DNA of 64,000 nucleotides from Puniceibacterium sediminis. GTDB lineage: Bacteria > Pseudomonadota > Alphaproteobacteria > Rhodobacterales > Rhodobacteraceae. Position numbers and translations under genes: made by a program. The stretch lies in contig NZ_FZNN01000003.1 in NCBI RefSeq assembly GCF_900188035.1, forward strand, positions 124,001-188,000, read 5' to 3'. Below are positions 45,430-46,753 of this stretch, one piece after another. The notes under the pieces are model-generated. The model searched no databases. It saw only the letters and a program-made list of their open reading frames with translations, and was not told the origin of the DNA. Within the stretch, counting starts at the first letter, position 1. Every line of letters starts with the position of its first letter.

Positions 45430-46059
45430 ATGACACGTCAACACCTTCCCGGGATTCTGGCCATGGCGGCCATTGTCCTTGCCTCCAACATTCTGGTGCA
45501 GTTCCTCTTTGGCAACTGGCTCACCTGGGGAGCCTTCACCTATCCCTTCGCCTTTCTGGTCACCGACCTCATGAACCGGATCTACGGTGCCCGCGCCGCG
45601 CGTCAGGTCGTCTTCGCGGGTTTTGTGGTCGGGATCGTCTGCTCCCTGATCGGCACACAGATCATGGGTGAATACGGCCCGCTGGTCACATGGCGTATCG
45701 CCATCGGCTCTGGCGTGGCGTTCCTCACCGCACAAATGCTGGACGTCGCCATCTTTGATCGTCTGCGCACGGGTGCATGGTGGCGCGCGCCGCTGGCCTC
45801 GACGCTGGTCGGCTCGTCCGTGGACACAATGCTGTTCTTCTCCATCGCCTTCTCCGGCGCGCTGTCGTTCATCGAACCTGCCAACGATGTTTCCTGGGCA
45901 GCAGAGGCGCTGCCACTACTGGGCTTTGGCCCGCTGGTGCCGCTCTGGGTGTCGCTGGCCGTCGCGGACTGGGGCGTCAAGCTGGGCCTGGCCCTGATCG
46001 CGCTGATCCCGTTCCGAGTGATCGTTTCAAAGGCAATGGCCGGAAAAATCATCGCCTGA
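45430..46059 (+). CDS. yhhQ: Queuosine precursor transporter (YhhQ/VUT family)
   Basis: 209 residues with six hydrophobic helices. Family marks are FGNWLTWGAFTYPFAFLVTDLMNRIYG and TAQMLDVAIFDRLR...SSVDTMLFFSIAFSG. It imports preQ0/preQ1 for queuosine synthesis in tRNA. The start MTRQHLPG was chosen because it follows the riboswitch-like leader directly. It has no good Shine-Dalgarno apart from G-rich bases held in the pseudoknot, which agrees with translational control by preQ1. Confidence 0.92.
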   Translation: MTRQHLPGILAMAAIVLASNILVQFLFGNWLTWGAFTYPFAFLVTDLMNRIYGARAARQVVFAGFVVGIVCSLIGTQIMGEYGPLVTWRIAIGSGVAFLTAQMLDVAIFDRLRTGAWWRAPLASTLVGSSVDTMLFFSIAFSGALSFIEPANDVSWAAEALPLLGFGPLVPLWVSLAVADWGVKLGLALIALIPFRVIVSKAMAGKIIA

Positions 46060-46138
46060 CGGCAAAAAACGCTTTGCGATTCAAACCTCTCATGCCACCT
46101 TTCCCTTAGGTTCAACGTAATTGAAAGGAGGTGATCCA

Positions 46139-46195
46139 GTGTCGAGAGAAACATTGGAGAGAGGTGTCGGAACAGTTCGGAGGATGACGCCCTAG
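46139..46195 (+). CDS. 18-codon ORF behind an extended Shine-Dalgarno
   Basis: GTG start 7 nt after AGGAGG encodes MSRETLERGVGTVRRMTP and stops at TAG. The initiation signal is far stronger than any other in the window, which argues that ribosome loading here is the point. The peptide is basic and has no recognised domain. It could be a leader peptide whose translation controls the folding of the surrounding RNA. Another possibility is that only ribosome binding matters. Confidence 0.45.
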   Translation: MSRETLERGVGTVRRMTP

Positions 46196-46263
46196 GGCAG
46201 CCCCGGGGTCAAACCCCTCCCGAATTGGTGAGCGCCTAACCGGCCCCACCTCCTCAATTCTCG

Positions 46264-46295
46264 AAGGGCCGTCCGAAGATCGGGCGGCCCTTTTT
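46264..46295 (+). terminator. Intrinsic terminator before arfB
   Basis: A 12-bp stem (46265-46276 with 46280-46291, one G-U pair) closed by a 3-nt loop is followed by TTTTT. It lies 36 nt before the arfB start, so transcripts from upstream must pass it to reach arfB unless arfB has its own promoter in that short space. Confidence 0.9.
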
Positions 46296-46330
46296 GCCTG
46301 CCAGACCACGACCGCGAAATGGAACGAACG

Positions 46331-46753
46331 ATGCTACGGATCAACGACAGGATAGCGATCGAGGACTGGGAACTGACCGAACAGTTCATCCGCGCTTCGG
46401 GACCCGGCGGGCAGAACGTGAACAAGGTCTCTTCGGCGGTCGAACTGCGGTTCGAGGCAGAGCGTTCGCCGAACCTGCCGACCGCGGTCAAGATACGCCT
46501 GCGCAAACTCGCCGGGCGGCGCTGGTCCAAAGAGGGCGCGCTGGTGCTTCAGGTCGACGAAACCCGCAGCCAGGTCCGCAACCGCGAAATCGCTCGCGAC
46601 CGGCTGAGCGAGTTGATCCGGCAGGCCTGCGAAAAACCCAAACGCCGTATCCCGACAAAGCCGACTCTGGGGTCAAAAAAACGCCGCCTGCTGGCCAAGA
46701 AGGTCCGGGGCGAGGTCAAGGCCCTGCGTGGCAAGGTCGAAGGCGAAGGTTGA
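46331..46753 (+). CDS. arfB: Alternative ribosome-rescue factor ArfB (peptidyl-tRNA hydrolase)
   Basis: 140 residues, the E. coli ArfB length, when started at MLRINDRIAIEDWELTEQF; an ATG 12 nt upstream is also possible. It carries the GGQ motif (RASGPGGQNVNKVSS) that hydrolyses peptidyl-tRNA in stalled ribosomes. A basic C-terminal tail (KKRRLLAKKVRGEVKALRGK) enters the empty mRNA channel. No stop-codon recognition domain is present. The strong terminator immediately upstream suggests that its expression is limited. Confidence 0.95.
   Translation: MLRINDRIAIEDWELTEQFIRASGPGGQNVNKVSSAVELRFEAERSPNLPTAVKIRLRKLAGRRWSKEGALVLQVDETRSQVRNREIARDRLSELIRQACEKPKRRIPTKPTLGSKKRRLLAKKVRGEVKALRGKVEGEG

Follow-up and report, generated by a model that had tools for sequence, protein, structure and literature searches.

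Our analysis suggests that a perfect complement of the 16S rRNA 3' tail in Puniceibacterium sediminis is part of an autonomous small gene, in which a ribosome would be captured by the nascent RNA, the finished RNA would close on itself, and the act of translation would matter more than the peptide. We hold this reading at a probability of roughly 58%. The window analysed is a whole stretch of 64,000 nt of this genome, in which the unit occupies 178 nt. Its ORF, ribosome site, mask and terminator, and their conservation across the class Alphaproteobacteria, can be read directly from the DNA. We propose that this is a real, conserved and under-described element, and that the Rfam family RF01867 (CC2171) be reinterpreted as translated: on sequence evidence, a catalogued sRNA family looks like a translated short-ORF message whose ribosome site is about as long as such a site can be. 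The family is conserved, mostly in single copy, in a class where for one model species, Caulobacter, most start codons are reported to lack a Shine-Dalgarno site (PMC4117421).

The ribosome site and its short ORF

The 17-mer GAAAGGAGGTGATCCAG (Table 1) had been described from the sequence alone as a perfect 17-nt complement of the 16S 3' tail. The genome's own 16S 3' end (...GCGGCTGGATCACCTCCTTTCT, locus L031) confirms this, being the exact complement of the 17-mer. A search of the genome with the 15-mer AAAGGAGGTGATCCA at up to one mismatch gave only two matches, i.e. this site and the antisense strand of the 16S end. The predicted pairing energy between the site and the 16S tail is -26.8 kcal/mol, with -20.9 for the runner-up among the 15-nt sites of the 64-kb window that pass a simple motif filter.

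The unit is widespread in Rhodobacteraceae. Our first search of 60 relatives found it in 29 genomes, 27 of them among the 36 of the same family (its own genome included). A model built on 25 loci (R1) found it in 181 of the 198 family genomes and 180 of the 197 genera, leaving 17 genomes without a match. Most counts below come from a comparison set of 100 loci, which represent 98 genera and include the window; L003, L004, L016, L024, L026, L214 and L215 were left out of this set, as were ten loci repeating genomes already included. Alignment A1 excludes L021, whose ORF is truncated, and L026, L028 and L029, which have different ORFs. In 81 of the 100 loci the site can form all 15 pairs, counting G-U, with the 15-nt tail of 16S rRNA, and in 97 it can form at least 14. 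In the commonest variant, GGTGGTCC (24 loci), an A-U pair with the tail becomes G-U. We read this conserved tail pairing as probable selection for pairing over the entire 16S tail, past the usual core.

The 16S complement is the predicted ribosome site of a conserved short ORF, which the sequence-only reading missed. It had stated that the unit holds no larger gene, which is true, while overlooking the 18 codons inside. The GTG start (46139-46141) overlaps the last base of the 17-mer. The ORF is exactly 18 codons long in 95 of the 100 loci (25 of 26 Rhodobacteraceae-type loci viewed in an earlier sample) and starts with GTG in 99. The stop codons are freely exchanged, with 45 TGA, 35 TAG and 20 TAA. 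No locus has TGG at codon 19, though purines vary freely at both variable stop positions; about 15 of 95 would be expected under independence, these 95 loci having been chosen for a stop at that position, and the other five loci have no tryptophan there either. Codons with a single difference are synonymous in 44% of cases in frame, compared with 28% and 26% in the shifted frames; these frame counts, as well as the pairing counts below, treat the loci as independent, ignoring phylogeny. The family member L026 carries another ORF type, of 26 codons. At L021 the ORF has only 12 codons and stops right after VGT, a hint that the peptide may do without its last six residues.

Table 1. Features of the unit and its surroundings, in positions of the window
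Feature	Position	Strand	Basis or remark
VUT/YhhQ-type transporter gene (PF02592), upstream	45430..46059	+	start taken at ATG 45430
-35-like hexamer TTGCGA, predicted own promoter	46074..46079	+	sequence
Match to Rfam RF01867 CC2171, model 1-159 of 159	46115..46291	+	43.8 bits, E 3.1e-8
17-mer GAAAGGAGGTGATCCAG, putative Shine-Dalgarno site of the short ORF	46123-46139	+	sequence; pairing; relatives
5' strand of masking helix P1 (GGAGGTG)	46127..46133	+	minimum-energy fold; alignments
Hairpin P2 (TCCAGTGT / ACATTGGA), holds the GTG start codon	46135..46158	+	fold; 95.5% of cells paired
18-codon ORF, GTG start, VSRETLERGVGTVRRMTP, stop TAG 46193-46195	46139..46195	+	reading frame; relatives
Helices P3 (46167-46170 x 46240-46243) and P4 (46173-46180 x 46220-46227), between the ORF and the 3' half	46167..46243	+	
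Anti-Shine-Dalgarno strand CACCTCCTCAATT; conserved part CACCTCC 46247-46253	46247..46259	+	fold; alignments
Intrinsic terminator, 14-bp stem and U-run	46263..46295	+	fold; terminator in 100/100 related loci
arfB (RF-1 domain protein, MLRINDRI...)	46331..46753	+	37 nt behind the terminator stem

The mask, the fold and the transcript

The sequence-only reading had proposed that a downstream strand could mask the site by 13 bp, and that an internal hairpin and a strong terminator complete the unit. The minimum-energy fold contains all three, CACCTCCTCAATT pairing over 13 bp with the ribosome site. The unit folds at -83.5 kcal/mol (z = -5.04), with none of 200 shuffles as low, and the fold of the opposite strand is less remarkable (z = -2.66, 2 of 200 shuffles). 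A generic terminator scan of the window does not list the terminator at 46263-46295, a likely reason being that its stem pairs into the U-run. L012 and L022 carry tandemly repeated short units, of the kind GTGCACCCGG / GTACACACCCC, directly behind the terminator.

The predicted masked pairing is conserved, as had been claimed. Over the 100 loci, whose alignment (A2) was fitted to the structure so that its counts lean towards that structure, helix P1 is paired in 99.4% of cells, and the whole structure has standard pairs in 94.8% of cells, compared with 89.5% for shuffles and 36.5-58.0% once the partner strand is shifted along. An earlier MAFFT alignment of 25 sequences gave 91.6%, against 36-57% slid. 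Changes on both sides of a helix were found in all four pairs of P3 and in six of the eight pairs of P4. P1 changes on one side only, mostly from C to T or from A to G, and a pair is retained in almost every case; no compensatory change is possible there because the strand of the ribosome site is invariant. The check that had been suggested in relatives thus gave a mixed outcome: the 16S complement and the structure are kept and compensatory changes occur in P2 to P5, but not in P1. A generic test for a helix between the Shine-Dalgarno or start region and the sequence before the terminator gave a weak result, with only 21 of 68 sequences at 5/100 or better.

In the window, the core of the site has a predicted pairing probability of 0.86 in the full RNA versus 0.49 before the mask is transcribed. 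The RNA's own mask binds the site at -16.5 kcal/mol, less strongly than the 16S tail does. Messages closed between their 5' and 3' parts are known, such as those of type I toxins, in which a 3' strand sequesters the ribosome site in the finished RNA. The window RNA is like them in having a site that a 3' strand is predicted to mask; a type I toxin is a hydrophobic peptide countered by an antisense antitoxin, whereas VSRETLERGVGTVRRMTP is short and charged.

No promoter was listed for the unit by a general sigma-70 scan. In 64 of the 100 loci, however, the GAAAGG of the ribosome site is preceded at 47-49 nt by the best TTGACA match, and such a hexamer at a set distance suggests that the RNA has its own promoter and starts near 46112. 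The predicted transcript would then span about 46112-46295.

Spread in Alphaproteobacteria and the relation to RF01867

The exact site AAAGGAGGTGATCCNDTG occurs in 63 of 385 genomes of the class, once in each, and a reversed-pattern control gave none. The other 322 genomes lack it, and the distribution in the class is patchy at the sensitivity used. Among 62 class sequences (the window's own excluded), frame 0 stays open through the first 17 codons in 60, compared with 24 and 36 for the other frames; ORFs of 17-31 codons are found in 50 of the 62, versus 8 and 14. Searching named genomes for the 21-mer GAAAGGAGGTGATCCAGTGTC gave at least 119 stretches. The matches listed come from Rhodobacterales, Hyphomicrobiales, Caulobacterales (Brevundimonas, Phenylobacterium), Acetobacteraceae and Rhodospirillales, together with one Sphingomonadales bin and unresolved proteobacterial bins, and 79 of the 80 listed have ORFs of 12-31 codons, versus 32 and 21 in the other frames. 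The shorter AAGGAGGTGATCCNDTG is present in 47 of 86 class genomes, a count tallied by hand from a phylum-wide table, versus 1 of 213 phylum genomes of other classes (G636:C50:51745-51761). In other Alphaproteobacteria the site is nearly always followed by an ORF of 14-36 codons and a terminator, usually once per genome, and a terminator lies behind it in 68 of 69 class sequences. Five loci (L066, L070, L084, L121 and L122) combine the same maximal ribosome site with ORFs of 39-57 codons, which in all except L070 begin like exported small proteins; they may represent a different use of the site.

Self-masking is widespread in these sequences and not universal. When the strongest pairing of the site with any other part of the RNA is compared with 100 dinucleotide shuffles, 67 of 224 distinct sequences fall among the lowest five, where about 11-13 would be expected; this test covers sequences that have a terminator and at least 40 nt of remaining RNA. 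The results differ among groups, which were assigned by simple peptide patterns: 40 of 121 for the Rhodobacteraceae type, 11 of 33 for the W motif and 9 of 11 for the Bradyrhizobium type, versus a weak 7 of 48 for the others and a shuffle-like 0 of 11 for the EQP type.

We consider that the window RNA belongs to, or stands beside, RF01867 as a divergent, probably translated relative; our probability for this is the one given above for the mechanism as a whole. The match scores 43.8 bits at permissive cmscan thresholds, below the gathering score of 75 bits, and at gathering scores Rfam has no family in the window. The two are alike in their 5' end (CAACA...GAAAGGAGGUGAUCCAGUGUC), similar length, terminator and full-length cmscan alignment, with the likeness strongest in the nearly identical first 30 nt and the terminator and the alignment poor elsewhere. 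They differ in that the long-range helix CAUUGUC/GACAAUG of RF01867 does not form in the window, where it meets non-standard pairs and gaps; the Shine-Dalgarno site would pair with CACCTCC instead. As a counterpart of that helix in Rhodobacteraceae we considered a pairing of codons 2-4 with TCTCGA, which by eye fails in the loci having TCTAGA. RF01867 is filed in Rfam as an sRNA, whereas the relatives of the window RNA and the class members have what appears to be a conserved short coding ORF.

Matches to RF01867 at E 0.01 or better were found in 69 of 289 Alphaproteobacteria genomes, nine of them above the gathering score, leaving 220 without a match. Of 14 named control genomes, Caulobacter vibrioides and Deinobacterium chartae gave matches, one of them over the cut-off. 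We viewed 30 RF01867 loci, one being the window, and the other 29 all have the 16S complement followed by an ORF of 18-26 codons at the same distance. RcsR1 (RF02552) was rejected as a relative: its Rfam match has only 17 bits (E 0.26), and a review places its transcription at the position of the trp attenuator RNA rnTrpL (PMC7143759). CC2171 was listed as MH_s33 in a screen of Mesorhizobium huakuii, with RNA-seq coordinates of 215 nt, and in the available passages it is outside the nine RNAs tested by Northern blot (PMC5596092). It also appears in a table of the Rfam 15 paper (PMC11701678). In the open-licence literature we found no description of CC2171 as a coding RNA or as having a 16S complement.

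The proposed mechanism and its rivals

We suggest that the RNA 5' end pairs with the whole single-stranded 16S 3' tail and starts the 18-codon ORF, and that the same site can be taken by CACCTCC near the 3' end or, outside this family, by a strand within the ORF that closely resembles the 16S tail. A 30S subunit would capture the site while the RNA is nascent or free 30S is plentiful; since transcription reaches the mask only some 115 nt after the site, the subunit can win on the nascent RNA. The terminated, finished RNA would close and become a poor message. The unit could thus work as a co-transcriptional ribosome-capture switch, and if the self-mask works as proposed, the cell would have a simple way to sense free ribosomal subunits. 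Transcription and translation here, the kinetic order and any output are what we infer.

Several observations count against this mechanism. The start codon has a predicted pairing probability of 0.99 in hairpin P2, with or without the mask, which argues against efficient initiation. The one-sided changes in P1 give no compensatory proof, and the mask is at shuffle level in the EQP group and weak in the 'other' group. The RF01867 score below gathering, the poor alignment past the 5' end and terminator, and the patchy distribution in the class also weigh against it. The strongest published counterpoint is the statement from Caulobacter ribosome profiling that ncRNAs are in general not translated; CC2171 is not named in the passages available (PMC4117421). 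In S. meliloti, 33% of 54 non-annotated translated short ORFs were found by ribosome profiling to lie on annotated sRNAs (PMC10117765), so that a coding reading is plausible in principle.

The S. meliloti duf1127-1 leader is similar in design, a short translated ORF on a small RNA with the ribosome site and first codons in a predicted hairpin, and its authors describe it as suited to sensing ribosome shortage (PMC12218461). It differs in having no intrinsic terminator (termination is probably Rho-dependent) and a DUF1127 gene downstream (PMC12218461). Beside the class loci examined, a search for a simple DUF1127 motif gave nothing, and we take this leader as an analogue only, having rejected it as a homologue on both grounds. 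Extended Shine-Dalgarno sites in S. aureus, where the pairing extends toward the start codon and is used with weak start codons, show that such helices are compatible with initiation (PMC13009471). They belong to another phylum, and the passages available describe no self-masking small RNA (PMC13009471).

The main rival holds that the RNA is a normal small message made for its 18-aa peptide, with the strong site simply ensuring high expression and the structure tuning it. We think this unlikely, though it fits the conservation within families. In Rhodobacteraceae the core VSRxxLExxVGT is largely kept, together with the in-frame excess of synonymous changes, and in the Bradyrhizobium type (L234, L239, L243, L244, L252, L260, L261, L271, L284, L285 and L104) the 14-aa peptide VSxxKRCHLAGIAR is near-invariant, exceeding in conservation those seen in the other clades. 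Against it, the last five codons (14-18) vary freely among Rhodobacteraceae, and the peptides of different families share little beyond Met/Val-Ser. Many Hyphomicrobiales-type members have a peptide motif WIVAS, encoded by TGGATCGTCGCCTCC. This sequence nearly repeats the 16S tail TGGATCACCTCC and could form 6 + 6 bp with the ribosome site from inside the ORF; at the DNA level the motif coincides with a strand pairing that site.

An alternative hypothesis could be a class-wide device reading free 30S, in which capture during transcription chooses between an open, translated RNA and a closed, inert one; we regard it as rather unlikely. One molecule would carry both the complement of the entire 16S tail and a strand competing with that tail. 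The competing strand would be TGGATCGTCGCCTCC in the ORF in many clades, or the 3' CACCTCC in Rhodobacteraceae. Translation would gate an sRNA, with the peptide as a by-product, and the freed anti-Shine-Dalgarno strand of the open RNA could act on other messages.

It seems improbable to us that the Rhodobacteraceae unit is a regulated leader of arfB, where read-through when ribosomes are short or stalled would raise the rescue factor ArfB. The leader role had been raised from the sequence alone. In its favour, arfB follows in 87 of the 100 loci, and in 52 of the 87 fewer than 60 nt (minimum 10) separate the terminator end from the arfB start. A further promoter would hardly fit into such a gap, so that arfB is probably reached by read-through in these 52. 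In this family the unit bears on the transcription of a ribosome-rescue gene. On the other side, in 13 of the 100 loci the RNA is retained and no arfB match turns up within the 485-1689 nt searched from the site. A pairing of CCGGCCC with the GGGCCG arm of the terminator is appealing as an antiterminator in the window, but across 99 loci such local pairing, the kind covered by the test, is no better than in shuffles (rank 3/60 or better in 5 of 99, with a mean z of -0.38). On the upstream side, all 26 Rhodobacteraceae-type loci have the VUT-type transporter gene. L022 has, in addition to arfB, three more stretches matching the ArfB C-terminal part at 733-1672 nt behind the site; they are possibly lysine/arginine-rich low-complexity genes.

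Outside the family the neighbours of the unit are unrelated. Clustering of the flanking ORFs gave no neighbour common to more than a few loci, and Pfam named 6 of 20 downstream ORFs, in six different families (M13 peptidase, TPR, PLP decarboxylase, ILVD/EDD, aminotransferase class IV and Meth_synt_2), four in the same orientation and two in the opposite one. Longest-ORF neighbours were rejected as a test of autonomy: many are shadow ORFs in GC-rich DNA, and their strand counts were therefore not used. An RNA present across the class, for which we found no shared neighbour outside the family, can be a leader of arfB at most locally. With its site, ORF and terminator kept class-wide beside unrelated genes, the unit appears to be an autonomous small mRNA or dual-function RNA, more than a leader of arfB.

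A non-coding regulator, i.e. a sponge for 30S or for sRNAs with anti-Shine-Dalgarno seeds with an incidental ORF, is very improbable in our view: the full 16S complement is indeed the most widely conserved element and RF01867 is filed as an sRNA, but the ORF has a near-fixed length in the family, interchangeable stops and a fixed start position. Chance, or a fragment of 16S antisense sequence, is suggested by the 17-mer being antisense to the 16S 3' end and has a negligible probability, refuted by conservation, as the match ends at 17 nt and the unit recurs throughout most of the family with its own structure and ORF.
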